NCBI GenBank assembly: GCA_023443925.1
Contig: JAEZSL010000137.1
Coordinates: forward strand, 1 to 24,349
Source of the DNA: Bacillota bacterium
GTDB taxonomy: Bacteria; Bacillota_A; Clostridia; Lachnospirales; Lachnospiraceae
DNA length: 24,349 nucleotides
Direction of reading: 5' to 3'
Below, piece after piece: positions 3,746 through 21,126 of this stretch; positions within the stretch are counted from its first letter, which is position 1; each line of letters starts with the position of its first letter. The position numbers were made by a program, and so were the translations under genes. Under the pieces are notes generated by a model. It saw only the letters and a program-made list of their open reading frames with translations. It ran no database searches and had not been told where the DNA came from.

Positions 3746-3766
3746 ATGACAAAAGGAGAACGCAAA

Positions 3767-4786: not shown

Positions 4787-4817
4787 TTATATATGTTTGC
4801 AGGAAGGAATATCAAAG

Positions 4818-6011: not shown

Positions 6012-6715
6012 GCAGCTTATTTGATTTTAAGTTAGTGATTGAGTATTTTCCGCAAATTCTTTCAAGATTACATATAACTTTGATTATCGTGATTACAGCC
6101 ACTTTATTTGGAGTAATTTTTGGGGCATTGATTGCATTGGTCAGAATTAACAAATTATTGATATTGAGTCAGATCGCCGGCGTATTTGTTTCATTTATCA
6201 GAGGAACGCCGATTATAGTCCAGTTATTTATCGTATTTTATGGATTACCTATGCTGCTGTTAAAAATAGGGATTAATGTTGTCAGATGGGATGAATTTTA
6301 TTTTGTCATTATAACCTATGCTTTAAACGCATCAGCTTTTCTATCTGAAATCATAAGGGGTGCCATTAAGGGTGTTGATACAGGCCAGAGTGAAGCCGCC
6401 TACTCTGTCGGACTTACTAAATTCCAGACCTTTTACAGAATAGCTGCACCCCAGGCATTCGCGACGGCTTTACCCAGTTTTTCTGCAAGCACCGTTAATT
6501 TGCTGCAGAATACTTCCTTAGGTTTTACCATTGGAGTAATTGACATTATAGGCAAAGTAAAGGCAATCGGGGTAAGGACCTATCATACGGTTGAAGGTTA
6601 TATCGGAGCTGCAGTTATTTTTGTAATTCTTAGTCTGTTATTACAAAGATTATCTAATATTTTGGAAACGAAAGTGAATTTTTATCAAAAACAGGGGCGA
6701 AGACAGGAGGGTTAA
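6008..6715 (+). CDS. Polar amino acid ABC transporter permease, copy 1a
   Basis: An integral membrane subunit of the His/Glu/Gln/cystine permease family (235 residues). Several hydrophobic helices are evident, with the conserved RGTPIIVQLFIVFYGLP segment and the cytoplasmic coupling loop [20 protein letters not shown] followed by APQA. The start overlaps the M20 stop by four bases (ATGA), implying translational coupling. It is paralogous to the permease at 14031 (shared VEYFP-ILSR-HIT N-terminus). It probably pairs with the next gene to make a heterodimeric channel fed by the lipoprotein at 3767. Confidence 0.92.
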   Translation: MSSLFDFKLVIEYFPQILSRLHITLIIVITATLFGVIFGALIALVRINKLLILSQIAGVFVSFIRGTPIIVQLFIVFYGLPMLLLKIGINVVRWDEFYFVIITYALNASAFLSEIIRGAIKGVDTGQSEAAYSVGLTKFQTFYRIAAPQAFATALPSFSASTVNLLQNTSLGFTIGVIDIIGKVKAIGVRTYHTVEGYIGAAVIFVILSLLLQRLSNILETKVNFYQKQGRRQEG

Positions 6716-7423
6716 ATGAATTTTGATATTGCTTTTATGGGTGAAGCATTAAAAAGCGCAATTCAATATATTCCTGTCACCTTTCAATTAGCCGGAATAT
6801 CTTTTCTGATATCCTTATTAATCGGAATCGCTATTGCAGTCATTAGAGTATTTAAAGTTAAAGTACTGGCAGGTGTGCTGGAAATTATTATTACGGTGCT
6901 AAAAGCTGTACCGATGGTTCTGATATTATACATTTTATTTTTTGTGATGACGGATGTTTTTGATTTTCTGGCAGAATCCCTTGATTTAACCATCAGGTCC
7001 AAAGACTTAAGTACAAATTTTATAGGAATTACCGCCCTTTCTGTTTTCGGAACCGTAATAATTTCAGAAACGATACGGGGTGCTTTTATGGCGATTGATT
7101 ATGGACAGTATGAAGCTGGATACTCCATAGGGCTGACAAAATTACAAACCATGAGAAGAATAATCCTTCCCCAGTCCATCCTGGTTGCCACTCCAGTTCT
7201 GTGCAATAATCTGATTGCACTTGTGAAAGCATCCTCTATTACCTACATGATAACCATCATGGATATTATGAACGGTGCGTTAAAAGCGGCAACAAAAAAT
7301 TATGCATACTTAGAAGCATATATAGCAGCCGCAATTATTTACTGGGTCATATGTTTATCCATTGAACAACTGGCAAGAGCCTTAGAAATCAGGATGGGTA
7401 AGTTTAGGAAACGAATGTTATAA
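6716..7423 (+). CDS. Polar amino acid ABC transporter permease, copy 1b
   Basis: Second membrane subunit of the same family (235 residues). Its ATG directly follows the TAA of the preceding permease, with GGAGG inside the upstream gene. The coupling loop reads GQYEAGYSIGLTKLQTMRRIILPQ. Its counterpart in the second set is at 14802 (shared TIRGA, SIRSKD and YWxxxxxIE words). No ATPase gene follows: the next gene is the nitrogenase iron protein, 400 bases on. The ATPase at 15506 is the natural candidate to energise this pair. Confidence 0.92.
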   Translation: MNFDIAFMGEALKSAIQYIPVTFQLAGISFLISLLIGIAIAVIRVFKVKVLAGVLEIIITVLKAVPMVLILYILFFVMTDVFDFLAESLDLTIRSKDLSTNFIGITALSVFGTVIISETIRGAFMAIDYGQYEAGYSIGLTKLQTMRRIILPQSILVATPVLCNNLIALVKASSITYMITIMDIMNGALKAATKNYAYLEAYIAAAIIYWVICLSIEQLARALEIRMGKFRKRML

Positions 7424-7501
7424 CAAATCAATGTATTCGTATAAACCATGTTTAATAAGAAAGTTTTCTAAGCTGATATATAAAAAGAAAAGGATAAGTT
7501 T

Positions 7502-7760
7502 AAAAGAAATATAAAAATCAAAAGGATGCCACATTACGATTCTTTCAAAGGTTGAAAGAAAATATAAAAATCGAAAGGATACCACGTTACGATTCTTTCA
7601 AAGGTTGAAAGAAAATATAAAAATTGAAAGGATGCCACATTACGATTCTTTCAAAGGTTGAAAGAAAATATAAAAATCGAAAGGATGCCACGTTACGATT
7701 CTTTCAAAGGTTGAAAGAAAATATAAAAATCGAAAGGATGCCACATTACAATTCTTTCAA
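7502..7760. repeat. 53-bp tandem repeat array upstream of the iron protein gene
   Basis: About five units at 7502-7554, 7555-7607, 7608-7660, 7661-7713 and 7714-7760 (the last truncated or diverged), almost identical apart from CAC/CGT and ATC/ATT changes. At each of the four junctions there is a perfect dyad: TTCTTTCAA, then AGG, then TTGAAAGAA. The array fills most of the 404-base gap between the second permease and the iron protein. There are no spacers, so this is not CRISPR. In RNA each junction would form a hairpin, and in DNA it would make four evenly spaced operator-like sites. Near-identity of units implies recent expansion. Confidence 0.92.
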
Positions 7761-7827: not shown

Positions 7828-8706
7828 ATGTCTAAAAAAATAACACAAATCGCAATTTATGGAAAAGGAGGTATTGGTAAATCTACCACGACTTCCAATA
7901 TAACAGCAGCCTTATCTGAACAGGGTTATAAAGTAATGCAGTTTGGCTGTGACCCCAAAAGTGATTCCACCAATACCCTTAGAGATGGTAAATATATCCC
8001 AACCGTACTGGATACCCTTCGTGAGAAATCTTCGGTAAAAGCACAGGATGTTATTTTTCGGGGATTTAACGGGATTTATTGTGTGGAAGCCGGCGGGCCG
8101 GCACCTGGGGTAGGCTGTGCAGGCAGAGGAATCATCACCGCGGTGGAACTGTTTAAACAGCAGAAAGTCTTTGAGGAATTAGAGCTGGATTATGTAATAT
8201 ATGACGTGCTGGGGGATGTAGTCTGCGGCGGTTTTGCAGTACCCATACGGGAAGGCATAGCAGAACATGTATTTACCGTATCTTCCGCAGATTTCATGTC
8301 CATCTATGCTTCCAATAATTTATTTAAAGGGATACATAAATATTCCAATTCCGGCGGTGCATTACTGGGAGGAGTCATAGCAAATTCTATCAATGCTCCT
8401 TATGCCAGAGAAATCATTGACGATTTCGCCCAAAAAACAAATACCCAGATCATGGAATACGTACCTCGCTCCGTTACGGTAACACAAAGCGAATTACAGG
8501 GCAAGACAACAATTGAAGCTGCACCGAAATCCAAACAGGCAGAGGTATACCGTTCCCTTGCAAGTAAAATAGCAAACCACACCGAGTCGAAAGTACCGTC
8601 CCCTCTTGAAATCAGTGAACTGAGGGAATGGGCGGCGAAATGGGGAGACTATCTCTTAGCTTTGGAAACGAGTACGATAAAACCTGAATTAGCGGCTAAT
8701 TTGTAG
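7828..8706 (+). CDS. nifH: Nitrogenase iron protein family (NifH-like) reductase
   Basis: A homodimeric ATP-dependent reductase that passes electrons from a bridging [4Fe-4S] cluster to its D/K partners. Residues 12-20 are the P-loop GKGGIGKST. GCDPKSDST follows at 40-48. The cluster ligands are Cys97 (GVGCAGRG) and Cys133 (GDVVCGGFA), and Arg100 is kept. 292 residues from ATG 7828, the usual length. The open frame reaches far upstream through the 53-bp repeats (from 7624), but the family begins at this Met. ATG 7816 or 7738 remain possible, because none has a good ribosome site. The C-terminal tail (ELREWAAKWGDYL) differs from Mo-nitrogenase NifH. It is the only iron protein in the window and probably serves both D/K pairs. 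Confidence 0.93.
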   Translation: MSKKITQIAIYGKGGIGKSTTTSNITAALSEQGYKVMQFGCDPKSDSTNTLRDGKYIPTVLDTLREKSSVKAQDVIFRGFNGIYCVEAGGPAPGVGCAGRGIITAVELFKQQKVFEELELDYVIYDVLGDVVCGGFAVPIREGIAEHVFTVSSADFMSIYASNNLFKGIHKYSNSGGALLGGVIANSINAPYAREIIDDFAQKTNTQIMEYVPRSVTVTQSELQGKTTIEAAPKSKQAEVYRSLASKIANHTESKVPSPLEISELREWAAKWGDYLLALETSTIKPELAANL

Positions 8707-8718
8707 GAGGTAATTAGA

Positions 8719-10185
8719 ATGGCATTAAACTTAAAGGTATCGAGTGTAGGAACCAGGGAAAACAGATTGGGTTCCATAACTGGTTATAACGGTGATTTAC
8801 AGGACCTAGTGAATCAGTCCAGATGCGGGACTTTAAAGAACAGAGAACGTTGTTTCAGCCAGTCCAGTACCTGCTTATCCGGGTGTGCGCTTGGTCAGTT
8901 ATCCGGTATCCGGGATGTGGCAATTATTAATCATGCACCGGCAGGCTGTACGGCGACGGCTGCGGGAGCTATCGTATTAAATCATCAGCTTGCGGCTAAG
9001 ATAGGCGTTACAAACGATACCGTATATGTGGGAACTGATATGGATGAAAGGGATACTGTGTTTGGAGCTACCGAGACCCTGCGGGATATTATTATAAAAA
9101 CTTATGAAGTATATAAGCCAAAAGCTATTTTTGTAGGAACTTCCTGCGTAACCGGGATTATTGGCGAAGATGTCGATAGTATCGTAGCGGATTTAAGGGA
9201 AGAAATTGATATTCCCATTGCTGCCGTACATTGTGAAGGTTTTAAGTCAAGAATATGGGCTTCCGGGTTTGATATATCCGATCATGCGGTTTTACAGACA
9301 CTGGTGAAACCACCAAAAGAGAAAAGGAATGTGATTAACTTTAAAAATTTCTTTGAAAGTGAAAGAAACCAGATTACGGAAATCTTTGCTGAATTTGGTG
9401 TGAAGACACAATTTCTGTTTCAAAATGCAACGGTAGAAGAATTGGAACACATTTCTGAATCCTTAGCAACCGTCTGTATCTGCGGAACCCTTGGCACATA
9501 CCTGGGAAATGGCCTGGAACAGTTATATGGGGTTCCCTATATCCGTACTATTAATCCTTTGGGGGTTACCGGCTTTGAAACCTGGCTTCGTGAAATTGGA
9601 AAGACAATCGGTAAAGTGGAAGCGGTGGAAGCTTATCTTGAAAGGGAGAGAGCAATCTATCTGCCTCAAATTAACGAAATAAAAAAGGAATTAAAAGGAC
9701 TTAAGGCAGTCATTGGTATGGGACCCGGATATACCTATGAAGTATCCAGGGTACTACAGGAGCTGGATATGGAAGTTGTATGGGCAGCGGCCTGGCATTA
9801 TGACGGTAAGTATGATAATGATCAGGTTCCGCCGGCACTTGACTATCTTTCGAAGACCTCACCAAATAACATAAACTTAAGCGTTGCTGACCAGCAAAAC
9901 TTTGAAGTATTAAATATTTTAAATGAATACCAGCCGGATATTTACTTTTCCAGACATCCGGGAACTACCGTATGGGCCATTAAGCAGGGAATCGCAGCCT
10001 TATATGTGGCGGATGAATATATGATATTCGGCTATAAAGGAACTCTGAATTTTGCAAAATCGGTACTGGATACGATACGAAACAGAAGTTTTGAAAAAAA
10101 TCTGGCTAAAAGGGTGAAGCTTCCTTACACAGAATGGTGGTATCAACAAAATAATGGTGCGCTCTTAAAGGAGGTTTCTGAGTAA
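8719..10185 (+). CDS. NifD-like nitrogenase-superfamily subunit, pair 1
   Basis: Alpha-type subunit (488 residues), 12 bases after the iron protein with GGAGG in between. P-cluster-type cysteines are Cys52 (25 residues before the next one, as in the family), Cys77 (PAGC) and Cys143 (TSCVTGIIGED). Cys255 (CICGTLG) is exactly 18 residues before the Pro of GVPY, as is the cofactor ligand Cys275 in Azotobacter NifD. The region that carries His442 there reads ALYVADEYMIFGYKG, with no His. Positions equivalent to Gln191 and His195 are Trp180 and Phe184, and Arg96 is not kept. It is therefore a nitrogenase-like protein able to hold clusters but unlikely to reduce N2. It could be catalytic for another substrate or act as a NifE-like scaffold. 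Confidence 0.9.
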   Translation: MALNLKVSSVGTRENRLGSITGYNGDLQDLVNQSRCGTLKNRERCFSQSSTCLSGCALGQLSGIRDVAIINHAPAGCTATAAGAIVLNHQLAAKIGVTNDTVYVGTDMDERDTVFGATETLRDIIIKTYEVYKPKAIFVGTSCVTGIIGEDVDSIVADLREEIDIPIAAVHCEGFKSRIWASGFDISDHAVLQTLVKPPKEKRNVINFKNFFESERNQITEIFAEFGVKTQFLFQNATVEELEHISESLATVCICGTLGTYLGNGLEQLYGVPYIRTINPLGVTGFETWLREIGKTIGKVEAVEAYLERERAIYLPQINEIKKELKGLKAVIGMGPGYTYEVSRVLQELDMEVVWAAAWHYDGKYDNDQVPPALDYLSKTSPNNINLSVADQQNFEVLNILNEYQPDIYFSRHPGTTVWAIKQGIAALYVADEYMIFGYKGTLNFAKSVLDTIRNRSFEKNLAKRVKLPYTEWWYQQNNGALLKEVSE

Positions 10186-11483
10186 TGGCAAAAATCTTAG
10201 ATCAGCCAAGATATAAATGTGCGCTGGCAGCGATGCAGACGGTACAGGCAATTCAAAGAGCCCTTCCGATTCTGCACTCCGGACCGGGTTGTGCGGAAAA
10301 GTTAAGCGGAAGTGTAGGAAGTTCGGGGCTTTATTCCCCCCACATTTTCCCCTGTACCAGCATTAGTGAAAAAGAGGTTATTTTTGGCGGTGATGATAAA
10401 TTAGAAGAAACCATTGAAAATTCCTTAAAAGTGATTGATGCGGATCTATATGTGGTATTAACGGGATGTACTTCTGAAATTGTAGGTGACAATGTAGAAG
10501 ATGTGGTGGGGAAATTTAAAAATAATGATAAACCGGTAATCTATGCTTCTACAGCAGGTTTTAAAGGAAATAATTACAGAGGCCATGACTGGATTCTAAA
10601 AGCAATCTTTGACCAATATTTAAAACCGGTTGACCAAATAGAAAAAGGACTTGTAAATATTTGGAGCGGAATCCCCATGCATGATCCTTTTTGGCTGGGT
10701 AATTTGAGGGAGCTTGAGAGGCTGGTGGCGGAACTTGGATTAAAACCTAATATAATCTTCGGCCATGGCAAAGGAATTAAGAATATAGATAAAATTCCGG
10801 CGGCAGAATTTAATTTATTAGTTTCCCCCTGGGTAGGACTTGAAAGCGTAAAGTTTTTAGAAGAAAAATTCGGAACCCCTTATCTGCACTATCCGGTGCT
10901 ACCCATTGGAGCCTTTGAAACAACCAAATTCCTGCGTACCGTAGGAGAATATGCAGAGGTTGATTCTGTTAAAGTTGAGGAAATTATTACAAAACATGAA
11001 GAAGATTACTATTACTATATTGAACGGTATGCGGATGTATTTTTAGAAACCCGTGTTATGGCAAAAAGGTTTGTTACCGTGTCCGATGCACAGAACAGCC
11101 TTGCCCTGACTAAATTTCTGGTAAATGATTTAGGACTTTTTCCTTCCAAGCAATACATAATTGATGATACCCCGGAAGAATACCGGGGATTAATAGCAGG
11201 TTATTTTAATGATTTAAATTACGGTATCAAAGCAGAAGCCGGGTTTAGCAGCGACGGACATGAAATACATAGTGAAATTGAAAGTGCTGATTTTAATGGA
11301 TATCCTTTAATTCTTGGCAGCAGCTGGGAAAAAGTTTTAGCAAAAAAATTGAATGCGCATTATCTAAACGTTTCCTATCCTGTGGTAGAGAGATTAATTA
11401 TTAACAGCAGTATCGCAGGATATAATGGCGGGTTGAAACTGTTAGAAGATATTTACTCGGTGGTACTTACAAGATTTAACTAA
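10185..11483 (+). CDS. NifK-like nitrogenase-superfamily subunit, pair 1
   Basis: Beta-type subunit (432 residues). Its ATG shares one base with the upstream TAA, and AAAGGAGG lies inside the end of the D gene, so the two are coupled. The three P-cluster-type cysteines are Cys12 (YKCALAAM), Cys36 (SGPGC) and Cys95 (TGCTSEIVGD). The protein begins only about 11 residues before the first cysteine, so it lacks the long N-terminal arm of NifK, and it is about 90 residues shorter than Mo-NifK. Other family words are VFGG-like IFGGDDKL, HDPFW and PVLPIGAFETTKFLR. It should form an alpha2beta2 complex with the preceding D protein. It resembles the K protein at 19490 throughout. Confidence 0.9.
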   Translation: MAKILDQPRYKCALAAMQTVQAIQRALPILHSGPGCAEKLSGSVGSSGLYSPHIFPCTSISEKEVIFGGDDKLEETIENSLKVIDADLYVVLTGCTSEIVGDNVEDVVGKFKNNDKPVIYASTAGFKGNNYRGHDWILKAIFDQYLKPVDQIEKGLVNIWSGIPMHDPFWLGNLRELERLVAELGLKPNIIFGHGKGIKNIDKIPAAEFNLLVSPWVGLESVKFLEEKFGTPYLHYPVLPIGAFETTKFLRTVGEYAEVDSVKVEEIITKHEEDYYYYIERYADVFLETRVMAKRFVTVSDAQNSLALTKFLVNDLGLFPSKQYIIDDTPEEYRGLIAGYFNDLNYGIKAEAGFSSDGHEIHSEIESADFNGYPLILGSSWEKVLAKKLNAHYLNVSYPVVERLIINSSIAGYNGGLKLLEDIYSVVLTRFN

Positions 11484-11544
11484 AAAGATTGGTTTTATTA
11501 ACAAGTTCTTTACTTAATTCCAGAAACAGAGTATGACATGTTAA

Positions 11545-11567
11545 TTTCATTACTTAAGTTAATGAAA
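11545..11567. promoter_or_regulatory. 23-bp palindrome between the K1 and nifB genes
   Basis: TTTCATTA (11545-11552) and TAATGAAA (11560-11567) are perfect complements around CTTAAGT, itself nearly symmetric. It lies in the 142-base gap before nifB and is followed by TTGACA at 11571-11576, for which I find no matching -10 at the proper distance. It is an operator candidate or a weak hairpin with no T-tract. Confidence 0.4.
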
Positions 11568-11625
11568 GTTTTGACATTTGATTCAAGCTTAATAAAGCTT
11601 TAACATTCTAATCAAGGTTCATGAT

Positions 11626-12522
11626 ATGAGAAATAGAAAGAAGGCTTGCATATTGAAGAATTATGAAAATTTGAAAAATTCCCACCCTTGCTTTGGCGGA
11701 CAAAAGAAGAATAAAGGCAGGATACATTTACCGGTCAGTCCGGGTTGTAATATTGAATGTAAATTTTGTGACAGAAAAATTAATGATTATGAGCAAAGAC
11801 CCGGAGTGACTTCTTCTATTATTAAGCCGCAGGAGGCTCTTGCTATAATTAAACGGTCTCTGGAACTATGTCCGGATATTACAGTTGCAGGGATTGCAGG
11901 ACCCGGAGACACTCTCGCAACGAATTATGCCCTTGAAACTTTTCGGCTTATAAAGGAAGAGTTTCCTGAAATAATTAAATGCATGAGTACCAATGGTTTA
12001 TTGTTAAACGAAAAGGCTGAGGAATTAATAAGAGTAGGAATCGATTCCCTGACCGTTACTGTCAATGCAGTGGATAAAAGAATTTTGGCAAAGCTGTGCA
12101 GCGGTATTCTTTATCACGGGGTAAGGTATGAAGGCGAAGAAGCAGCCGGGATTTTAATTAAGAATCAGCTGGCTGGGATTAAAAAGATAGCTGCCGCCGG
12201 AATTACAATTAAAGTAAATACAGTATTGGTTCCTGGCATTAATGACGGACATATAGAAGAAATTGCAAAAACAGTCAGTGAAGCCGGAGCAGCCATCTAT
12301 AATATTATTCCTTTAATTCCCCAGCATGAATTATCTGATTGTGAGTCTCCTTCCTGCAGTCAGATTGATGGGGCGAGACTGAAAGCAGAAAAATATATTG
12401 ATGTCTTCAGACATTGTCAAAGATGCAGAGCCGATGCGATTGGAATACCGGGTGAACAAGATTTTGGCGATCAAATCTATTTTAACAGAATTGCACTTAG
12501 AGAAACTTTTTCTCATGGATAA
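11626..12522 (+). CDS. nifB: NifB, radical SAM cofactor-core synthase (no fused NifX domain)
   Basis: NifB uses S-adenosylmethionine to fuse two [4Fe-4S] clusters and insert a carbide, giving the Fe8 core (NifB-co) of nitrogenase cofactors. The radical SAM motif CNIECKFC is at residues 41-48. NifB hallmarks are HPC (20-22), QRPGVTS, AGPGDTLA, MSTNGL, TVTVNAVD, VLVPGINDGH and near the end RHCQRCRADAIG (Cys264, Cys267). 298 residues, so it is the short form without the C-terminal NifX-like domain, which here is the separate next gene. The ribosome site is weak (AAGG about 9 bases upstream), and no better start is seen. Its presence inside this operon implies that at least one D/K pair carries a NifB-derived cluster, not just a simple [4Fe-4S] cluster. 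Confidence 0.94.
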   Translation: MRNRKKACILKNYENLKNSHPCFGGQKKNKGRIHLPVSPGCNIECKFCDRKINDYEQRPGVTSSIIKPQEALAIIKRSLELCPDITVAGIAGPGDTLATNYALETFRLIKEEFPEIIKCMSTNGLLLNEKAEELIRVGIDSLTVTVNAVDKRILAKLCSGILYHGVRYEGEEAAGILIKNQLAGIKKIAAAGITIKVNTVLVPGINDGHIEEIAKTVSEAGAAIYNIIPLIPQHELSDCESPSCSQIDGARLKAEKYIDVFRHCQRCRADAIGIPGEQDFGDQIYFNRIALRETFSHG

Positions 12523-12617
12523 ATCTTTATCCTGTTACCATCAATTACACTTACAAAGTTTTCAGGTAAAGGGTATGAATGCTGATTAGGTAAGAATTAT
12601 GCAGAAAGGAAGTAAAT

Positions 12618-12974
12618 ATGTCATACAAAATAGCAGTTGCAAGTACGGATGGTAAGGTTGTAAATCAGCATTTTGGAAGAGCTGAAAAGTTTTATGTCCT
12701 GGAAGTAAATGATGATAATGAGTTTTATTATGTGGAGGAGAGAGATAATATTGCTGCCTGTAATGGAGGAACACACAGTGAGGAGGGGTTAGACCTTACT
12801 GTACAATTGCTTTCAGATTGCAAATATGTATTGGTCAGCCAGATTGGACCGGTAGCTGAATATGCACTCAGCAAAAAAGGAGTTACGGCATTTGCTATTT
12901 CACATTATGTTGAAGAAGCAGTAAAGAAATTAATTCACTTTAATAGTGAAATCATAATTAATAAATTAAGTTAA
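12618..12974 (+). CDS. NifX/NifB-C-terminal domain protein (cofactor carrier family)
   Basis: A small (118-residue) cytoplasmic protein of the dinitrogenase iron-molybdenum cofactor biosynthesis family (NifX, NafY, VnfX and the NifB C-terminus), which bind and carry cofactor precursors. The start is well set by AAAGGAAG upstream of the ATG. Family features are the opening KIAVASTDGKVVNQHFGRAEKFYV, with the typical HFGRA segment, and CKYVLVSQIGP. It lies 95 bases after nifB and probably performs the task of the NifB C-terminal domain or carries NifB-co to a D/K pair. Identification to family is firm. The exact role is inferred. Confidence 0.88.
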   Translation: MSYKIAVASTDGKVVNQHFGRAEKFYVLEVNDDNEFYYVEERDNIAACNGGTHSEEGLDLTVQLLSDCKYVLVSQIGPVAEYALSKKGVTAFAISHYVEEAVKKLIHFNSEIIINKLS

Positions 12975-12975
12975 G

Positions 12976-13072
12976 AGTATTCTCAGAAACCAGTTGAGGG
13001 TTTAGAAGCAAGTTTTAATAACCTCATTTATATATCTGGAAATATAAGCTTTGAAAAGTTTCTGAGAGTACT
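12976..13072 (+). promoter_or_regulatory. Candidate three-way-junction RNA before the second uptake set
   Basis: The arms 12976-12990 and 13058-13072 pair over 15 bp with a single G-T wobble. Enclosed are a second stem, TGAGG (12995-12999) with CCTCA (13022-13026), and a third, TATAT (13029-13033) with ATATA (13042-13046). It fills the gap between the NifX-like gene and the lipoprotein gene, ending 11 bases before its GGAGG. There is no T-tract, so it is not a plain terminator. It could be a processing/stability element or an aptamer. It does not match the purine riboswitch core or any class I know. Confidence 0.5.
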
Positions 13073-13095
13073 TAATAAAAAATGGAGGATAATAT

Positions 13096-14013
13096 ATGAA
13101 GAAAATTGTCAGAATTAAGAAAAGTATATTAGCTTTAGGGATTCTTTTATTAATAGGGATGGTAGCAACCGGTTGCGGTACAAAGAAAACGGTAGAAACG
13201 GTAGAAGATAAAACGCCTGCCAACAGTGCGGATATTAGTGGTGATACAACTACCACAGGTGATACTGCTGCCACAGCAGATGAAAATACTGCAAGCGGCG
13301 AAGTTAGGAAAGTTATTATCGGAACCGGAACCGCTTTTAAACCTTATTGTTACCTGGACGAGAACGGAAAACTTGCCGGATATGAGTATGAAGTTTTATC
13401 AGCGGTAGATGAACTGCTTCCTCAATATGAGTTTGAATTTCAGACATTTGAATTTGCTAATATATTAGTTGGTATCGATGCCAAAAAGATTGATGTAGGC
13501 GCCCATCAATTTGAGCTGAATGAAGAGCGGCAGGCAAAGTACCTCTTTTCCAATGAAAGTTATACCACCTTTATTTTAAGAATTACGGTTGATAAAAGCC
13601 GTGATGATATAAAGAGTCTGGAGGATCTGCAGGGGAAAAAAGTCCAGACCGGAACCGGCAGCAATGCTTCCTATATACTAGAACAATATAATAAAGAACA
13701 TGCCAATTCTCCGATTAACCTGATTTACTCCAGTGAGACTTCGGAGCAGCAGGTGAATAATATTGCAAACGGAACCTATGATGCAATTATTTCAATTACC
13801 AGAGTAGTTGAAAATCTGAATAAGGAATTTGGAGATCACTTAAAAACCGTTGGTGAGCCAATTGCAAATTCTAATACTTACTTTGTTTTAAATAAGGATG
13901 ATGTACAACTAAGGGATGATATCGACGGTGCACTGAAAACCTTAAAGGAAAACGGTAAATTAGCTGAACTCTCTATTAAAATCATTGGTGCAGATTATAC
14001 GACAAATGATTAA
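13096..14013 (+). CDS. ABC transporter substrate-binding lipoprotein, polar amino acid type (copy 2)
   Basis: Extracytoplasmic solute-binding lipoprotein (305 residues), with GGAGG at 13084-13088 before the ATG. The signal peptide ends in the lipobox VATGC with Cys27, then a Thr/Ala/Asp-rich linker to about residue 70. The mature domain begins IIGTGTAFKPYCYLDENGKLAGYE and aligns throughout with the lipoprotein at 3767 (EYE, LPQYEF, EFA-ILVG-DA). The shared and unusual segment AH-x4-N-ER replaces the TITPER of typical amino-acid binders. The two lipoproteins are thus paralogs, possibly with related but distinct ligands. It heads a complete uptake operon with the next three genes. Confidence 0.88.
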   Translation: MKKIVRIKKSILALGILLLIGMVATGCGTKKTVETVEDKTPANSADISGDTTTTGDTAATADENTASGEVRKVIIGTGTAFKPYCYLDENGKLAGYEYEVLSAVDELLPQYEFEFQTFEFANILVGIDAKKIDVGAHQFELNEERQAKYLFSNESYTTFILRITVDKSRDDIKSLEDLQGKKVQTGTGSNASYILEQYNKEHANSPINLIYSSETSEQQVNNIANGTYDAIISITRVVENLNKEFGDHLKTVGEPIANSNTYFVLNKDDVQLRDDIDGALKTLKENGKLAELSIKIIGADYTTND

Positions 14014-14030
14014 AAGAAGGGAAGCAGAAA

Positions 14031-14723
14031 ATGTCAGATTTTTTTTCTTTCAGCAGAGTAGTGGAGTATTTTCCTAAAATACTATCCAGAATCCATATCA
14101 CGTTAAGCATCGTTTTAACAGCTACCATAATCGGACTTTTTCTGGGAGTTGCTTTCGCCTTTATACGTATTTATAGAATTATAGTGTTAAATCAGCTGGT
14201 TCAGATTTTTATATCCTTTGTCAGAGACACTCCAATTATAGTGCAGATGTTTTTAGTCTATTATGGATTGCCGATATTTGTGGAGTTTGCTTTTAAAATA
14301 GATATTAACAGGTGGGATAAATTAATATTTATTATTATTACATATGGTTTAAATGAAGCGGGATTTATGACGGAGATAATCAGAGCTTCCATCTTAGCAA
14401 TACCGGCCGGGCAGACGGAGGCCGGATATTCTGTCGGCTTATCCGGCCGGCAGACATTCCTTAGAATTGTAGCACCTCAAGCTTTGCGGGTTGCAATTCC
14501 ACCGCTTGGAACTAATTTTGTCGGGTTATTTCAAGGTACTTCTTTAGCTTATCTGCTTGGAATTATTGATATTTTAGGTAAGGTGAATGTTATTGGTGCA
14601 AATACCTATCATTATCTGGAGGGTTATACCTGTGCCGCAGTCATCTTTGTAGTTATCAGTATTATCCTGGAAAAAGTATTTAAATTACTTGATAAACATT
14701 TAAAGTGTACTCTTGGAAAGTAA
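14031..14723 (+). CDS. Polar amino acid ABC transporter permease, copy 2a
   Basis: Membrane subunit (230 residues) of the His/Glu/Gln/cystine permease family, paralog of the one at 6008. It has the conserved RDTPIIVQMFLVYYGLP segment and the coupling loop GQTEAGYSVGLSGRQTFLRI followed by APQA. GAAGGGAAG precedes the ATG, 17 bases after the lipoprotein stop. It should pair with the permease at 14802. Confidence 0.92.
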   Translation: MSDFFSFSRVVEYFPKILSRIHITLSIVLTATIIGLFLGVAFAFIRIYRIIVLNQLVQIFISFVRDTPIIVQMFLVYYGLPIFVEFAFKIDINRWDKLIFIIITYGLNEAGFMTEIIRASILAIPAGQTEAGYSVGLSGRQTFLRIVAPQALRVAIPPLGTNFVGLFQGTSLAYLLGIIDILGKVNVIGANTYHYLEGYTCAAVIFVVISIILEKVFKLLDKHLKCTLGK

Positions 14724-14730
14724 AAATAAT

Positions 14731-14788
14731 TCAGGCTATGTAAAAAATCTGTTTCATCCGTCCTGATTTTATAGTGTGCCAACGCACA
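14731..14788 (+). promoter_or_regulatory. Small intercistronic hairpins between the two permeases
   Basis: TCAGG (14731-14735) can pair with CCTGA (14762-14766). A tight hairpin follows, TGTGC (14775-14779) with GCACA (14784-14788) around CAAC, three bases before the TAGGAG ribosome site of the next gene. There is no T-tract. It may tune translation or mRNA decay, but the evidence is only the dyads. Confidence 0.35.
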
Positions 14789-14801
14789 GATAGGAGTCAA
14801 T

Positions 14802-15509
14802 ATGAGTATTAATTATCCTCAGATACTGGTCAGTTTAAGTTATGCCGTAAAGTTTATTCCGGTGACCTTATTGTTAACCGCAGTACCTTTGTTATTCGGA
14901 ATTTTAATCGGTGGAATTATTGCAATTGTACGGGTATTCAGGATTAAAATCCTGTCATCTGTTTTAGACGTTGTTGTTACGATTTTTAAAGGAATACCCT
15001 CCACACTTATTATACTGATATCAAGTTTGTTTTTCACCAATGCTTTTGATAATTTTGCAAAATCATTAAATTGGTCAATAAGGTCAAAAGATATTAATGT
15101 AATTTATATAGCATTATTTGCCCTTTCAATTTCAGCAACCGTATCAATTTCAGAAACCATCCGGGGTGCCTTGCTATCCATTGATCATAATCAATATGAT
15201 GCAGCTTATTCCATAGGGTTAACAAAATTTCAAACCTTTCAAAGAATTATACTTCCTCAGATGTTTTTAGTGATTATACCAACCCTTTCAGGTAATTTAA
15301 TTGGCCTGTTAAAAGGCTCTTCCATTGCATTTTTAATCGGTGTATCTGAGATTTTAAATAGTTCATTAAGGACTGCCAATGCTACCTATGCTTTTTTAGA
15401 GGCTTATATTGCTGCGGCTGTTATATACTGGGGATTAGGTATTCTAATTGAAATTTCAGGAAAATTCATAGAAAAGAAATTCAGCTGTTACAGGAGGAAT
15501 TTAGCATGA
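14802..15509 (+). CDS. Polar amino acid ABC transporter permease, copy 2b
   Basis: Second membrane subunit of the copy-2 importer (235 residues), paralog of the permease at 6716. The coupling loop reads [24 protein letters not shown], and it shares SIRSKD and [12 protein letters not shown] with its paralog. TAGGAG precedes the ATG. Its stop overlaps the start of the ATPase by four bases (ATGA), so the two are translationally coupled. Confidence 0.92.
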
Positions 15510-16258
15510 TAGAAATAAAAAATATCCATAAGGCATTTGGTAAAAACAAAGTCTTAAGGGGAGTGGATATAAAAGTGGAAAAGGGAGATGTTGTAGTAAT
15601 CCTCGGCTCAAGCGGCTCCGGAAAAACAACTCTTTTACGATGTATTAATTTTCTTGAAAAAGCGGATGATGGGGAAATCAGAATTAATGATATGCAGGTA
15701 AAATTTAAGAATGCCAGTAAAAAAGAAATACTTGATATCAGAAAGAAAACAGCTTTTGTGTTCCAGAACTATAATCTGTTTAATAATAAAACCGCACTGG
15801 AGAATGTAACAGAAGGGCTTATAGTTGCCAGGAAGGTTCCAAAAAAGGAAGCGGAAGAGAGAGCGAAGGATGCACTTAACAAGGTTGGCCTGTCACAGAA
15901 ATATGATTCCTATCCCAGCCAGTTATCAGGCGGACAGCAGCAGCGGGTTGGGATAGCCAGAGCACTTGTGTTAAATCCGGAAGTGATTTTATTTGATGAA
16001 CCTACCTCAGCCTTGGATGCGGAGTTGATCGGAGAAGCCCGGGCAGTTTTTAAAAAAGTTGGAAAAGAAGGAATTACCATGATTGTCGTAACACATGAAA
16101 TGTCTTTTGCTTCTGATGTTGCAAATCATGTAATATTTATGGATGAAGGAGTAATCGTAGAGGAAGGAACTCCAAATGAGATTTTTACACATCCGAAAGA
16201 AGAACGGACGAAGCAATTTTTAAAGAGAATTCTGCCGGAAGCAGTATATTATATTTAA
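15506..16258 (+). CDS. Polar amino acid ABC transporter ATP-binding protein
   Basis: ATPase of the GlnQ/TcyN type (250 residues) powering import. It is complete by motif: Walker [10 protein letters not shown] at 34-42, Q-loop FVFQNYNLF, signature [15 protein letters not shown], Walker [13 protein letters not shown] and the switch His in [13 protein letters not shown] precedes the ATG at 15506. It is the only intact ATPase of this type in the window, while two permease pairs of this type are present, so it may energise both the copy-2 pair and the ATPase-less copy-1 pair. Confidence 0.94.
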
Positions 16259-16296
16259 TGTATTACTTAATTTTAGGAACGAAACAGATCTTAATT

Positions 16297-16321
16297 TTAA
16301 ATATTAATTATTAATATTTAA
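16297..16321. promoter_or_regulatory. 25-bp AT-only palindrome
   Basis: Twelve-base arms (TTAAATATTAAT and ATTAATATTTAA) are perfect complements around a single T, in the 91-base gap between the ATPase and the sulfonate-type permease. It consists only of A and T, so as RNA it is weak. As DNA it is a striking dyad that may be an operator or a melting site. Chance occurrence in AT-rich DNA is possible but unlikely at this arm length. Confidence 0.4.
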
Positions 16322-16349
16322 TTATTAATTGAGATGGGAGGATAGCGTA

Positions 16350-17147
16350 ATGACGAATAAAACGAAACCAGCGAAAAAAGCATCTGAAATAATTCTGCCG
16401 ATTATACTGCCGGTGTTATTCATTATAGTATGGTTTGTATGGATTACCATAATAAACCCCAATACTAACCTGCCATCTCCTATTGATATTATAAACAGGG
16501 CGGTTTCTATGAGTATCCATGGCCAAATTGTCCGTGGACAATTGGCAGAATACACATGGATAACTTCAAGACGTGCAATAATCGGACTTATAGCCGGAGG
16601 AGGAGCCGGGTTCCTCTTCGGCATCATAAACTCTATATTCCGTTTGATGGATATCAGTCTGAATGCAACAATACAAATTCTGAAGAATATTCCGGTTCTG
16701 GCTTTTATAGCCCTTGTGCTTGTACTGTTTGGCATAGGAGAAAATGTTAAAATTGCCCTGATCGCCTGCGATGTATTTTTCTCAGTTTATATCAGTATTT
16801 ATGGTGGTATTAAATCAATCGATGCCGGACTGTTTGAAATGGGGAAAGCTTACGGTTTAAACAAGGCTACTCTATTTAAAGAAATCATTCTTCCGGCTGT
16901 TTTTTCTTATTTTAGTATTGGTCTACGGCTCTCACTTAGAACGATGTGGCTGGTCTTAATTACTGTGGAGTTAATTGCACCCGAAGACGGAATTGGATAT
17001 ATGGCTATGGATGCAGTAAAATCTTCACAAATGGATCAGTTAGTATTAAGTGTTATTATATATGCATTATTAAGTAAATTGTCTGATAGCATGGTAAGGG
17101 CACTTGAACGAAACGTATTAAGCTGGCAGGATACTCAGGTGATTTAG
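16350..17147 (+). CDS. ABC transporter permease, sulfonate/nitrate/taurine (SsuC/TauC) type
   Basis: Integral membrane protein (265 residues) of the family importing aliphatic sulfonates, taurine, nitrate or thiamine precursors. ATG 16350 is preferred over the upstream TTG 16329 because GGGAGG lies at 16336-16341. It has five or six hydrophobic segments, an early PNTNLPSP motif typical of SsuC-like proteins, and the coupling loop SIDAGLFEMGKAYGLNKATLFKEIILPAV. A matching ATPase follows, but no SsuA/TauA-type binding protein is in the window. The ligand cannot be read from the sequence. Confidence 0.88.
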   Translation: MTNKTKPAKKASEIILPIILPVLFIIVWFVWITIINPNTNLPSPIDIINRAVSMSIHGQIVRGQLAEYTWITSRRAIIGLIAGGGAGFLFGIINSIFRLMDISLNATIQILKNIPVLAFIALVLVLFGIGENVKIALIACDVFFSVYISIYGGIKSIDAGLFEMGKAYGLNKATLFKEIILPAVFSYFSIGLRLSLRTMWLVLITVELIAPEDGIGYMAMDAVKSSQMDQLVLSVIIYALLSKLSDSMVRALERNVLSWQDTQVI

Positions 17148-17251
17148 AAAATCCTAATTGATAATACGCTGCCTAATTTGTTGCAAGTAAATAGAAAATA
17201 ACCGGAGTGTTCTTCTGCTTTCAAATTAATAGCAGCTAAGAGGTGAATTTA

Positions 17252-18028
17252 ATGTATAAAAATAAAGAAGGTTTTCAAATCGATATAAGTGGTCTTAACA
17301 AAAATTATGGCAGCAAAAAAGTGCTTAATAATCTAAATATTACAATTGAGGCAGGTGACTTTGTAGCGATAGTAGGCCGCAGCGGTTCTGGAAAGAGTAC
17401 ATTATTACGTATGATATCGGGTCTTGACAGTTTTGATTCCGGCAGCATGAAAGTGGAGGGGAATGAAGTATCTGGTGTTGATAAAAATGTACGGGTTCTA
17501 TTTCAAGAAGCGAATCTGATTCCCTGGAGAAATATAATTAAAAATGTAATTTTGGGAACAACCGGTAAGAGTGAAGCAGCGGCAGCACAGATTCTGGAGA
17601 AGGTCGGACTTATTAATAAAAAATATGCATGGCCCAAGGTTTTAACGGAAGGGGAGAGGCAAAGAGTCTCCTTAGCCAGGGCACTTGCCGGAAAACCAAA
17701 GGTTCTTCTGCTGGATGAACCGTTAGGCACGCTGGATTCACTAACGAAACTGGATATACAAAGTTTAATCGAAAAGCTTTGGCTGGAACTTGGCTTCACA
17801 GCAGTGCTTGTCACCCGTGATGTAAGTGAGGCGGTCAGACTGGCAAACAGGGTGATTATATTAGACGATAATAGTATAACTATAGATTTACAAATAACCT
17901 TACCCCGGCCCAGAATAAAAGATAATGATGCTGATTTTTTTGAACAGTATATTTTTAATAAACTCATGGAAAAAGATAAAGTGCAGGTCGAACTATCTAA
18001 ACTTGAATATGTGAATTTAAGGAGGTAA
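17252..18028 (+). CDS. ABC transporter ATPase, SsuB/TauB type, with degenerate signature and switch motifs
   Basis: Nucleotide-binding subunit (258 residues) expected to work with the preceding permease. I chose ATG 17252 over GTG 17243 because AGAGGTG directly precedes it. Walker A is intact (GRSGSGKST, 42-50), as are the Q-loop (LFQEANLIPW) and Walker B (VLLLDEPLGTLD). The signature reads LTEGERQRV instead of LSGGxxQRV, and the switch His of VTHD is Arg (LVTRDVSEAV; codon CGT). These two changes usually impair ATP hydrolysis. The protein may be a weak or regulatory ATPase, or one half of a heterodimer with another ATPase. It ends just before the second NifD-like gene. Confidence 0.87.
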   Translation: MYKNKEGFQIDISGLNKNYGSKKVLNNLNITIEAGDFVAIVGRSGSGKSTLLRMISGLDSFDSGSMKVEGNEVSGVDKNVRVLFQEANLIPWRNIIKNVILGTTGKSEAAAAQILEKVGLINKKYAWPKVLTEGERQRVSLARALAGKPKVLLLDEPLGTLDSLTKLDIQSLIEKLWLELGFTAVLVTRDVSEAVRLANRVIILDDNSITIDLQITLPRPRIKDNDADFFEQYIFNKLMEKDKVQVELSKLEYVNLRR

Positions 18029-18036
18029 TTATTAGT

Positions 18037-19485
18037 ATGAGTAATACCTATTCCGGTATACGTGAAAGCCGTCCCAATACCTTTAATGATTGCGGGGGTA
18101 ACAGCCATGAATTATCCTCAGAATTTGGTAAACGTTGTTTAAAATCAGCAGACCGAACCTTCAGTCAGGGACTTCAGTGTCAGCAGATTAACAGTATGTC
18201 TGCATTGATGTCACTGGAGGATTCTGTCTTTATAGCCCACTCACCCCAAGGTTGTGTTGGATGTACCACAATGGCAAGTGATATGTACCGGGTCGGACAG
18301 GCACACCGAGGTGCTAAAATTATTAAAAGTCCCAGAATCATTGTGTCGAATCTTGATCAGCGGGATGTTATTTTAGGTGGTGAAAATAAGTTGAAAGAGG
18401 CCATCGGGTATGCGTCGGAACGTTATAATCCCAAAGTGATTTTCGTATTTACTTCCTGTGCCTCCGGAATTATCGGAGATGATATCGATGCCATCGTCCG
18501 GGATATGCAGTCTAAAACAGAAGCTTTAATTATACCAATCCATTGTGATGGCTTTAAATCTAAAATATGTGCCTCCGGTTTTGATTCCGCATTTTTATCC
18601 ATATCCAAATATATTTTAAAAGGAGAAAAGTCCGAAAAGCAGAAGGGGCTTATCAATCTTTTTGCACCAACCTCTATCAGCTATAAAGATCAGCTTGAGA
18701 TGGAACGGATGCTTAACCTTCTTGGGTTAACGGTAAATTACATACCTTTTTACAGCACTCTTGAAAAAATTAAAACCATACCGGCGGCACAGGCTTCTAC
18801 CTCAATTTGCAAGGTATTTGCAGATGAGTTTATGAAAGAACTGGAGGAAGATTATGATATTCCCTATTCCCATACGGTAATGCCCATAGGTGTACGGAAT
18901 ACGGATAAATGGTATAAAAGTGTTGCGGCCCTCTTTGGAAAAGAAGCAGATGCGGAGGCATACATAGAAAAAGAACATGCCAGAATATTACCGGAAATAG
19001 AAAAAATAAAAGCACGTCTTCAGGGAAAACGGGTTTTCATCTGCGGCGGAACCGGGCGCTCTTTTGCAGCTGCAGCCTTAATTGATGATTTTGGTATGAA
19101 ACTGGTGGGTTTGGAAACTCCTACCTATGACGACGATGCACAGCTTGATATTGAATATCTAAATGAAATTCATGGCGACTATGTTATAGATATTGCAAAC
19201 ATGCAGCCCTTTGAACAAGTCAATATTGTTAACCGGTTAAAACCCGATGTGTTTATCGGTGTTGCCAGCTGGTCCGCAAGATTAGGGATTCCAACCACTC
19301 ACGTTTTGGATATGAAACGTCCTACGATGGGTTATGATGGTATTTTATATCTTGGCAATAAAATAGCCGATCAAATTGAAAACCCCGGCTTTAATAAAAA
19401 ACTGGCCGCACATGCCCGTTTACCATATAAAAAAACCTGGTATGATTCCAATCCATTTAAATTCATAAAACCCTTAGGAGAGTGA
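18037..19485 (+). CDS. NifD-like nitrogenase-superfamily subunit, pair 2
   Basis: Alpha-type subunit (482 residues), preceded by AGGAGG. The P-cluster-type cysteines are Cys48, Cys73 (SPQGC) and Cys141 (TSCASGIIGDD). Both cofactor-ligand positions of Azotobacter NifD are kept: Cys258 (SIC), 18 residues before the Pro of DIPY like Cys275, and His422 (TTHVLD), ten residues before GYDG like His442. However, the Gln191 and His195 positions are Cys178 and Phe182 (HCDGFKSKICASGF), and Arg96 is not kept. This predicts a protein that holds a NifB-derived cofactor but performs chemistry other than N2 reduction. It is separated from the iron protein gene by nine genes, an unusual layout. Confidence 0.9.
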   Translation: MSNTYSGIRESRPNTFNDCGGNSHELSSEFGKRCLKSADRTFSQGLQCQQINSMSALMSLEDSVFIAHSPQGCVGCTTMASDMYRVGQAHRGAKIIKSPRIIVSNLDQRDVILGGENKLKEAIGYASERYNPKVIFVFTSCASGIIGDDIDAIVRDMQSKTEALIIPIHCDGFKSKICASGFDSAFLSISKYILKGEKSEKQKGLINLFAPTSISYKDQLEMERMLNLLGLTVNYIPFYSTLEKIKTIPAAQASTSICKVFADEFMKELEEDYDIPYSHTVMPIGVRNTDKWYKSVAALFGKEADAEAYIEKEHARILPEIEKIKARLQGKRVFICGGTGRSFAAAALIDDFGMKLVGLETPTYDDDAQLDIEYLNEIHGDYVIDIANMQPFEQVNIVNRLKPDVFIGVASWSARLGIPTTHVLDMKRPTMGYDGILYLGNKIADQIENPGFNKKLAAHARLPYKKTWYDSNPFKFIKPLGE

Positions 19486-19489
19486 TAAT

Positions 19490-20776
19490 ATGTCCGTTGT
19501 AACAGAAAGCCCACGTGGCAATTGTGTACTTGGCGGTATTAATGCCGTATTAAGTGCTGTAGATAAAGTATGTCCCATCTTTCATTCTGGTCCGGGCTGC
19601 TGTATGCAGACTTCGGCAGGCGAATCTGGGCAGGCCGGAGGCCGCACCCCCCACTTTTTATCCAGTGTATCCCTGCCTTCGTCAAATATGCTGGAAAGAG
19701 AAGTTGTATTTGGTGGGGTTAATAAACTTCGTTCTACAATTGAGGGTGCCCTTGAAATTATTGATGCGGATGCTTATTTTATTCTGACCGGATGTACGGC
19801 AGGTATTATTGGGGATGATATAAAGAGTGTGGCAAATGAATTCACTGTAAAGGGAAATAAAGTTTATCCCATTGAAACCCCGGGCTTTGCCGGAGACAGC
19901 TACTTAGGTTATGAAGCAGCCTTTAAAACCTTTTTGGATTATATTGTGGAAGAGAATCTTCCGAAACAGGATAATTTGGTTAATTTATTTGGTATTATGC
20001 CTTATCATGATCCATTCTGGGAAGGTAATTTTGAAGAACTAACCAGAATACTGAAAAAACTCGGTTTAAAGGTAAATACCTTCTTTACGGAACATCAGGG
20101 AATAGAAACCATACGAACTTCATCGAAAGCAGCTCTTAACATTATTGTAAACCCCTGGTTGTTAAAAAGTGCAGCCGCAGAATATCAAGAACGTTTTGGA
20201 ATACCCGCCCTTAGAATACCTGGACTGCCAATCGGTGCAACGGATACGACAGAATTTGTACGCCAGGTTGCCGGAGCACTTAAGCTGGATAAAGATTTAG
20301 TGGAAAAAGTGATAGAAGAAGAGGAAACTTATATATATAACTATTTAGAAACTGCCATAGGAGCTCTTAGCTGGAAGCGGTTTGCAGTGGTAGGCGATGC
20401 AAACACCGCTGCCGCAGTAACAAGATTTCTTGCCAATGATTACAGTTTCACACCTATTATAACAATCATAACCGATCCGGTGTTTCGTGATGAGGATAAA
20501 ACCCGCATTATAAAACAAATTTCAGATTTAGAATATGCAAAACCGCCGGAAATAATATTTGAAACAGATCAATACAAAATAACCAAAGCCTTAGAAGCCC
20601 ATAGTGAAATAACCCTTTTAATCGGCAGTACTAACGAAAGAGAATTTGCCATGTCAAAGGATATCCAATGCAGTGTGATCTCATTTCCTATTACAGACCG
20701 GTTAATCTTTAACCGGACTTATGCAGGTTACAGGGGCAGCCTGACCTTTATTGAAGATCTGTATGATAATCTGTAG
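19490..20776 (+). CDS. NifK-like nitrogenase-superfamily subunit, pair 2
   Basis: Beta-type subunit (428 residues), starting 4 bases after the D2 stop with AGGAGAG inside the D2 end, so translation is coupled. P-cluster-type cysteines are Cys12 (GNCVLGG), Cys37 (SGPGC, followed by a second Cys38) and Cys102 (TGCTAGIIGDD). Like the K1 protein it has a very short N-terminus. Shared words with K1 include VVFGG, YHDPFW, LPIGATDTTEFVR and the GDAN/SDAQN segment near 300. The C-terminus is FIEDLYDNL. It should form the alpha2beta2 complex with D2 and is the last gene of the locus. Confidence 0.9.
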   Translation: MSVVTESPRGNCVLGGINAVLSAVDKVCPIFHSGPGCCMQTSAGESGQAGGRTPHFLSSVSLPSSNMLEREVVFGGVNKLRSTIEGALEIIDADAYFILTGCTAGIIGDDIKSVANEFTVKGNKVYPIETPGFAGDSYLGYEAAFKTFLDYIVEENLPKQDNLVNLFGIMPYHDPFWEGNFEELTRILKKLGLKVNTFFTEHQGIETIRTSSKAALNIIVNPWLLKSAAAEYQERFGIPALRIPGLPIGATDTTEFVRQVAGALKLDKDLVEKVIEEEETYIYNYLETAIGALSWKRFAVVGDANTAAAVTRFLANDYSFTPIITIITDPVFRDEDKTRIIKQISDLEYAKPPEIIFETDQYKITKALEAHSEITLLIGSTNEREFAMSKDIQCSVISFPITDRLIFNRTYAGYRGSLTFIEDLYDNL

Positions 20777-20925: not shown

Positions 20926-20926
20926 G
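20886..20926 (+). terminator. Strong two-part hairpin next to the 21-bp array
   Basis: CGGGTTCA (20886-20893) pairs with TGAACCCG (20919-20926), then after a 2x2 internal loop GTTCTG (20896-20901) pairs with CAGAAC (20911-20916). The total is 14 bp around a 9-nt loop. No T-tract follows on either strand, so a terminator role is uncertain. The last base of the stem is the first base of the 21-bp repeat array. Confidence 0.45.
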
Positions 20927-21072
20927 CAAAACGCTTTAAGATGCCTGCAAAACGCTTTAAGATGCGTGCAAAACGCTTTAAGATGCCTGCAAAACGCTTT
21001 GAGATACCTGCAAAGCGCTTTGAGATACCTGCAAAACGCTTTGAGATGCCCGCAAAACACTTTGAGATGTCC
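20926..21072. repeat. Seven tandem 21-bp repeats upstream of alaS
   Basis: Units of the type GCAAAACGCTTTAAGATGCCT begin at 20926, 20947, 20968, 20989, 21010, 21031 and 21052. An eighth decays after 21073. Later units change TTAAG to TTGAG. Each contains the dyad AAACGCTTT (perfect AAAGCGCTTT in unit 5), repeated at two helical turns. All reading frames on both strands stay open because the period is a multiple of three, so short open frames here are not evidence of genes. The array ends about 55 bp before the alaS promoter. Confidence 0.9.
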
Positions 21073-21126
21073 ACAAAACGCAGATACCGCATTTTGGAAC
21101 GTCACATATCCCTCCTCGCTATTTTA

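Follow-up and report, generated by a model that had tools for sequence, protein, structure and literature searches.

Nitrogenase-like D/K pairs of Group IV have been known since 2012, when Dos Santos and colleagues reported pairs that keep Cys275 and, in Syntrophobotulus, two four-gene sets of linked genes to which they assigned no function (PMC3464626). Among the enzymes of this group, methylthio-alkane reductase (MAR; Group IV-C) has as its ligand residues Cys270 and the loop-I pair Arg428-His429 of MarD (PMC12552129). In isethionate reductase (Isr), the IsrD subunit retains one P-cluster Cys but lacks both Cys275 and His442, and IsrB is BciD-like (PMC11423573). Here we describe a twin locus that is a variant of these Group IV systems. 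It occupies positions 7828–20776 of a 24,349-nucleotide stretch of Lachnospiraceae DNA (Bacillota bacterium, assembly GCA_023443925.1, contig JAEZSL010000137.1, positions 1 to 24,349; hereafter the window), and it combines one iron protein, H, with two D/K pairs, D1K1 and D2K2. On balance, we favor the reading that the two pairs are autonomous, ATP-driven Group IV reductases with a common supply of H and of NifB/NifX, and that they probably cleave C–S bonds of organosulfur compounds for sulfur assimilation. This reading builds on gene content, phylogeny, residue conservation, the occurrence of single pairs, and the sulfur-gene neighborhood of related loci.

The locus is an operon-like run of 13 genes:

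7828..8706, + strand: H, iron (Fe) protein, predicted to serve both pairs as a [4Fe-4S] ATPase reductase (Fer4_NifH 338.6 bits; TIGR01287 nifH equivalog 414 bits, cut-off 394)
8719..10185, + strand: D1, MAR-type catalytic subunit with Cys255 and Arg412-His413 (assigned by PDB match, tree, and ligand residues)
10185..11483, + strand: K1, partner subunit of D1 (best PDB match MarK, 379 bits; P-cluster Cys)
11626..12522, + strand: NifB-like radical S-adenosylmethionine (SAM) cofactor synthase without a NifX domain (aligns with NifB structures 7bi7/7jmb/7jma at 285 bits over residues 13–280; TIGR01290 263.6 bits, under the cut-off of 343.65)
12618..12974, + strand: NifX/NifB-C-terminal-type cluster carrier (PF02579 68 bits, cut-off 26.3)
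13096..14013, + strand: cystine/polar amino acid-type substrate-binding lipoprotein (NCBIfam cystine substrate-binding protein 109 bits, below the cut-off of 312)
14031..14723, + strand: amino acid-type ATP-binding cassette (ABC) permease
14802..15509, + strand: second amino acid-type ABC permease
15506..16258, + strand: amino acid-type ABC ATPase, TcyN-like (L-cystine ATPase TcyN 322 bits, below the cut-off of 406)
16329..17147, + strand: SsuC-like permease (SsuC 179 bits, below the cut-off of 347)
17243..18028, + strand: SsuB-like ATPase (sulfonate ATPase 268 bits, below the cut-off of 395)
18037..19485, + strand: D2, catalytic subunit in its own Group IV clade (Cys258, His422, Cys178)
19490..20776, + strand: K2, partner subunit of D2 (best PDB match MarK, 250 bits; P-cluster Cys)

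The original prediction, made by a model from the sequence, had listed NifH, two D/K pairs, NifB, NifX, and six ABC genes on one strand, all of which we found on the + strand. It had also remarked that nifE, nifN, nifV, and molybdate uptake were not visible; the window open reading frames (ORFs) that we scanned contained no nifE-, nifN-, nifV-, or mod-like gene. It counted the six transporter genes correctly without telling the cystine-type from the SsuBC-type kind. Because all of the transporter scores lie below the curated cut-offs, "cystine-type" and "Ssu-type" are family names here and not substrates. Its remark that it knew of no characterised system with this gene set is not supported, as Group IV pairs and the Syntrophobotulus four-gene sets were reported in 2012 (PMC3464626). 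Those sets resemble the present locus in their two linked D/K-like pairs, and D1 has 77% identity with a protein from Syntrophobotulus (P0031).

Neither pair groups with nitrogenase, and both are closest to MAR. D1 has MarD as its best PDB match (313 bits; NifD, 111 bits), as does D2 (252 bits; best non-MAR match, 119 bits). In a tree of 61 D rows, D1 and a three-row sister (100/98) adjoin the MAR group (100/99), D2 forms a deep clade of its own, and a 51-row set containing both leaves out the Nif-, Anf-, and NifE-type rows (99/97). The K tree (56 rows) is concordant, with K1 and K2 outside the nitrogenase-type rows (95/95). D1/K1 is thus its own clade beside the MarD/MarK clade, not inside it, and D2/K2 is separate. 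References in both trees are few and were labelled by us according to motifs and gene order (the NifE of L236, which is annotated, being the exception), several rows are long, the deep branches are uncertain, and row L215 9142, typed as D, is probably a K. The original prediction had taken both pairs for reductases outside the nitrogenase clades, and they do fall outside the Mo-type and alternative-type rows in these trees, which contain no verified V-type (Vnf) row. Closer MarD relatives, at 823–849 bits to MarD, are found in Propionispira (G004), C. aminobutyricum (G003), and Ruminiclostridium (G014); with ~313 bits for D1, we regard D1 as a sister group and not as MAR itself. A six-row Group IV clade (L222, L227, L204, L213, L203, L226) has His without Arg at the MAR loop-I position, and its loci carry Ssu-type transporter genes.

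As had been predicted for both pairs, all of the P-cluster-type cysteines are present. In alignments that include the window, these are C52, C77, and C143 of D1 (53/54 for C52, with one gap; 54/54 for the others), C12, C36, and C95 of K1 (59/59), C48, C73, and C141 of D2 (81/81), and C12, C37, and C102 of K2 (77/77). The MAR-type ligand residues Cys255 and Arg412-His413 are invariant in D1 (54/54), which does not have the nitrogenase His442-position residue. Judged from sequence, D2K2 is the more unusual half, with a predicted MAR-like fold, no MAR-type His, an invariant His where nitrogenase has its own, and Cys occupying the Gln191 position. The loop-I Arg-His falls in a gap in 81/81 D2 rows, and Cys258 and His422 are invariant (81/81). 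His422 was aligned to nitrogenase His442 by hhalign and by its equal spacing to the next Gly; MAFFT set loop II of D2 off that of NifD, and the match rests on the former two. At the Gln191 and His195 positions, D1 has Trp and Phe (54/54) and D2 has Cys and Phe (79/81 and 80/81, respectively). One Arg of D2 also aligns with a NifD Arg, which we take to be Arg359. A structure model of D2 built from 21 sequences reached a predicted local distance difference test (pLDDT) score of 68.5 and was not used.

Set against MAR, D1 and D2 both share the P-cluster Cys and a Cys270-type residue, D1 alone has equivalents of the loop-I Arg-His, Trp195, Phe199, and His375, and the operon likewise has a NifB-type maturase and no EN-like pair; Mar and Group IV pairs have also been reported beside sulfur-amino-acid genes. 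However, D1 is only 34% identical to MarD, with His194 replaced by Ile and Cys73 by Gly, Ser, or Asn, D2 is without the loop-I Arg-His, and here two pairs stand with one H and amino-acid-type importers. Isr (IsrBHDK) is alike in its Group IV membership, its HDK plus radical SAM set, its SsuCAB-type transport, and its role in sulfur assimilation, but D1 and D2 have three P-cluster Cys and a Cys275 equivalent, and B is NifB-like, not BciD-like. Nfa (Group IV-A; Endomicrobium, and NflDK1 of Heliophilum), compared by description, shares the B, X, H, D, and K set without NifEN; protein P0348 from Heliophilum fasciatum shares 76% identity with D of the L207-type group, outside D1 and D2. Mo-nitrogenase (NifHDKENB) shares the fold, the P-cluster Cys, and Cys275, and D2 also has a His aligned to the His442 position and one NifD Arg; it differs in that Gln191 and His195 are replaced here, the locus has no NifEN or NifV, and the clades are separate.

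We examined how often each pair occurs without the other. Among the best 80 of 186 confirmed D2 loci, 44 also contain D1, with fragments at contig edges counted. The remaining 36 genomes divide into 23 with a D1-clade gene in another place, at 64% identity or more (one partial), and 13 without; one of the 13, Anaerocolumna sp. AGMB13025, has a remnant, and the other 12, of which 11 are labelled as metagenome-assembled genomes (MAGs) and one has K1 at a contig edge, have none. D2 had two matches among 291 class-level genomes, AGMB13025 (G001) itself and one at 44%, and was therefore too rare at that level for statistics. In the family sample of 329 genomes used instead, D1 is full length in 21, D2 is present in 13 (one partial), and both occur in 11 (Fisher 2.5e-13), a count that omits the remnant in AGMB13025 and two fragments of D1. 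Of 15 genomes chosen from the family D1 matches, 8 encode D1 and K1 as their only two PF00148 proteins; Lachnospiraceae bacterium MC2017 (G015) likewise has just two, D2 and K2, and here the operon-like run is B-X-SsuA-SsuC-SsuB-GldA-like dehydrogenase-HisC-like aminotransferase-D2-K2-H. The pairs also decay one at a time. In AGMB13025, the closest relative with a complete genome, D1 (L001 1758-2158) has a large internal deletion of residues ~50–403 among intact neighbors, with K1, D2, and K2 preserved; G596 keeps D1, K1, and K2 but has D2 in pieces. Single-pair genomes and one-sided decay argue against either pair being a scaffold for the other, with the caution, at the level of gene content, that the single-pair genomes are mostly drafts of uncertain completeness. 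The source organism is close to Anaerocolumna, its D2 being 97% identical to that of AGMB13025. The latter has a nif-type cluster (H, D, K, an E-like ORF, and an N-B-like ORF, with a split nifV-like pair beside it), of which the window D1/K1 and D2/K2 are not duplicates. The genome of Ruminiclostridium hungatei (G014, source of locus L068) has 28 PF00148 matches, including a nif-type cluster, MAR-like genes, D1K1, and D2K2.

The gene neighborhood of related loci is rich in sulfur genes. As controls for 47 D2 loci of at least 15 kb, we took 20 stretches from eight of their genomes. CysK-type genes are present in 27/47 D2 loci and 0/20 controls, cystine-type substrate-binding proteins in 23/47 and 0/20, and any sulfur or importer family in 41/47 and 4/20, respectively. 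A CysK-type gene lies immediately upstream of D1 in 9/10 D1-only loci and for 18/39 D1 copies in D2 loci, and the cystine-type binding protein is commoner with D2 than in D1-only loci (1/10; p 0.03). Single representatives from the relatives exceeded the curated cut-offs (in brackets) for cysteine synthase A at 444 (351), PatB C–S lyase at 453 (340), and NifS at 600 (531) bits; cystathionine-type enzymes and SsuA-family proteins remained below theirs, and a serine-acetyltransferase-like protein gave weak Pfam matches. Plasmid pTS2 of Treponema saccharophilum carries D1K1 with an annotated cysK, an O-acetylhomoserine enzyme, and an ABC transporter set; the second pair of this organism is MAR-like, not D2K2. 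On a plasmid of Candidatus Chlorohelix allophototropha (L235), two nitrogenase-like pairs, NifB, NifX, NifH, and an O-acetylhomoserine enzyme lie amid insertion sequences.

For the cluster, its ligands, the C–S reaction, and its substrates and products, we propose the following. H would deliver electrons, driven by ATP, to both D1K1 and D2K2, and one NifB/NifX route would supply both with an [Fe8S9C]-type cluster. In D1K1, this cluster is expected to be held as in MAR, by Cys255 and loop-I His413; in D2K2, without a MAR-type His, Cys258 and His422 may hold it. The cystine-type and SsuBC-type transporters would import organosulfur compounds, and both reductases would cleave C–S bonds to give sulfide or thiol (or sulfite) for anaerobic sulfur assimilation. 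The prediction of one or more reductases for an imported small molecule with a NifB-derived cofactor is borne out as regards the non-nitrogenase pairs and the NifB-like maturase; the gene neighborhood narrows the molecule, and suggests organosulfur compounds as the imported type.

Several observations weigh against this proposal. The window has importers only and no CysK-, MetY-, or PatB-like gene, so that the link to sulfur rests on relatives. Enrichment p-values are indicative, as eight genomes supplied the controls and the queries themselves originate in the tested loci, and in the same comparison neither Ssu-type genes (12/47 and 3/20), NifS (1/47 and 1/20), serine acetyltransferase, nor GNAT (7/47 and 0/20; p 0.09) was significantly enriched. 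Relatives of the window's M20 protein are absent from all 80 D2 loci. AsrC, an anaerobic sulfite reductase subunit, exceeds its cut-off in 5/25 D2 genomes, 0/9 D1-only genomes, and 2/19 others; sulfite release is therefore not generally supported, and we rejected sulfite as a general product. No riboswitch reached the gathering score in 14 related loci (one tRNA only), and the RNA-family search of the window gave no credible riboswitch and two chance-level microRNA matches. His422 is shared, at the same spacing, by 15 of 17 clostridial NifE-type rows and thus is not by itself the mark of a catalytic subunit. Finally, the papers listed by literature searches, which covered few subscription journals, included no functional study of the twin loci and no biochemistry on either clade. 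A more specific idea, salvage of S-alkylcysteine by an anaerobic version of the ytm/yxe route of Bacillus, came from the resemblance of the window M20 protein to YxeP (173 bits) and from GNATs in some loci; given the M20 and GNAT counts we consider it weak, and one GNAT searched against NCBIfam had no match.

One pair, D2K2, could instead act like NifEN, as a scaffold on which the cluster of the other pair matures, a role that Dos Santos and colleagues raised for the Syntrophobotulus sets (PMC3464626). The strong co-occurrence of D1 and D2, the shared His of the NifE-type rows, and the best NCBIfam match of D2, nifE (182.6 bits, below the cut-off of 505), would fit such a role. We nevertheless find it unlikely, since each pair occurs and persists without the other and the NifD-type Arg of D2 is missing from the NifE rows. 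The mar operon, marBHDK, also has no EN-like pair, although the source does not state that the host's own nifEN is absent. Less likely again is that the two pairs are plain orthologues of MAR and Isr. D1 does have the hallmark Arg-His of MAR, and some D2 loci (G015) have SsuABC as Isr does; yet closer MarD relatives coexist in G004, G003, and G014, and D2, with three P-cluster Cys, Cys258, and a NifB-like B, departs from IsrD and IsrB on each of these points.

Just as doubtful is the idea that the pairs reduce imported non-sulfur substrates and that the sulfur genes supply cluster building, for which one might cite a NifS-type gene in 5/10 D1-only loci and 1/20 controls. Two nif-type clusters are without CysK (0/2), and CysK, cystathionine-type enzymes, and PatB lie outside cluster assembly. 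Least probable of all, D2K2 (or D1K1) would be a minimal NifEN-free nitrogenase, as proposed for Endomicrobium Nfa. B, X, and H are all present, D2 has the Cys275- and His442-position residues, and E. proavitum is cited as incorporating 15N2 without NifEN (PMC9147875). Gln191 and His195, described as essential for N2 reduction (PMC12552129), are however replaced in both clades, the neighboring genes are sulfur genes, and nifV exceeds its cut-off in 0/19 genomes, although the split nifV-like pairs that adjoin nif clusters do not reach this cut-off either. We retain two autonomous reductases, probably acting on C–S bonds, as the favored reading.

Upstream of H lie further genes that the original prediction left out of its list and that are possibly associated with the locus:

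3746-4723, + strand: second cystine-type substrate-binding protein
4797-6011, + strand: M20 amidohydrolase
6008-6715 and 6716-7423, + strand: two permeases with no ATPase beside them

The window has no SsuA despite its SsuB- and SsuC-like genes. Just upstream of H, at 7496-7760, a 53-bp unit occurs in five tandem copies (93% match) and contains the inverted repeat CTTTCAA-AGG-TTGAAAG; an exact 22-base piece of the unit was found in 0/256 loci compared. Other tandem repeats are 18-bp units at 1242-1350, in the N-terminal part of an acetolactate synthase ORF, and 21-bp units at 20926-21081, between K2 and alaS. The alaS gene, an 889-codon open frame in AGMB13025, has a single in-frame stop at 22677-22679, for which a sequencing error and a nonsense change are indistinguishable.

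The iron proteins of these loci look canonical. Window H and 6/6 tested H proteins of relatives exceed the nifH equivalog cut-off. In a tree whose bootstrap is unsettled, window H groups with Group IV-associated H proteins in a clade of 12 rows (98/94), and the H proteins that adjoin D1/D2 pairs of the same kind in the sampled Lachnospiraceae fall in a different 23-row clade (99/97) that also contains nif-cluster NifH, AnfH-type rows, and the H of some other Group IV loci. Window H is 98% identical to that of AGMB13025, 84% to that of C. aminobutyricum, and 49–50% to two nif-cluster NifH; four of the H proteins beside D1/D2 pairs in the sampled Lachnospiraceae are 75–79% identical to two nif-cluster NifH and 48–52% to window H. 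In 7 of 17 genomes searched (G006, G009, G012, G013, G015, G016, G017), presumably of rumen origin and with records not labelled MAG, a single NifH match exceeds 400 bits. In five of them it adjoins the D/K pairs; in G016 and G017 it shares their contig at a distance of ~18–26 kb. Among the PF00148 matches listed for these seven genomes, none exceeds 275 bits; in nine genomes with a four-gene nif-type cluster, the nif PF00148 matches score at least 337.

These results bear on nifH surveys. By a NifH screen, 23% of 501 rumen genomes scored as nitrogenase-positive, yet N2 fixation in the rumen is called negligible (PMC6776011); pseudo-nifH genes are already known (PMC8597730). We tentatively suggest, as a possible but doubtful extension, that D2K2 is a new class of nitrogenase-like C–S reductase, with a cluster that is held by a Cys/His pair of the nitrogenase type and faces the conserved Cys at the Gln191 position, that it works on a second organosulfur substrate beside a MAR-type D1K1, with one exchangeable iron protein for both, and that the canonical-looking NifH of many rumen Lachnospiraceae and Treponema serve this sulfur system and not nitrogenase. 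To the few nitrogenase relatives whose function is known, D2 would add a clade whose set of active-site residues is not shared by any other group in our comparison. If His422 is a ligand, one operon would hold both loop-I and loop-II cluster binding and offer a test bed for the features that define a nitrogenase. If the sulfur role is true, these loci would give some pseudo-nifH genes a definite role and would bear on the rumen nitrogenase puzzle.

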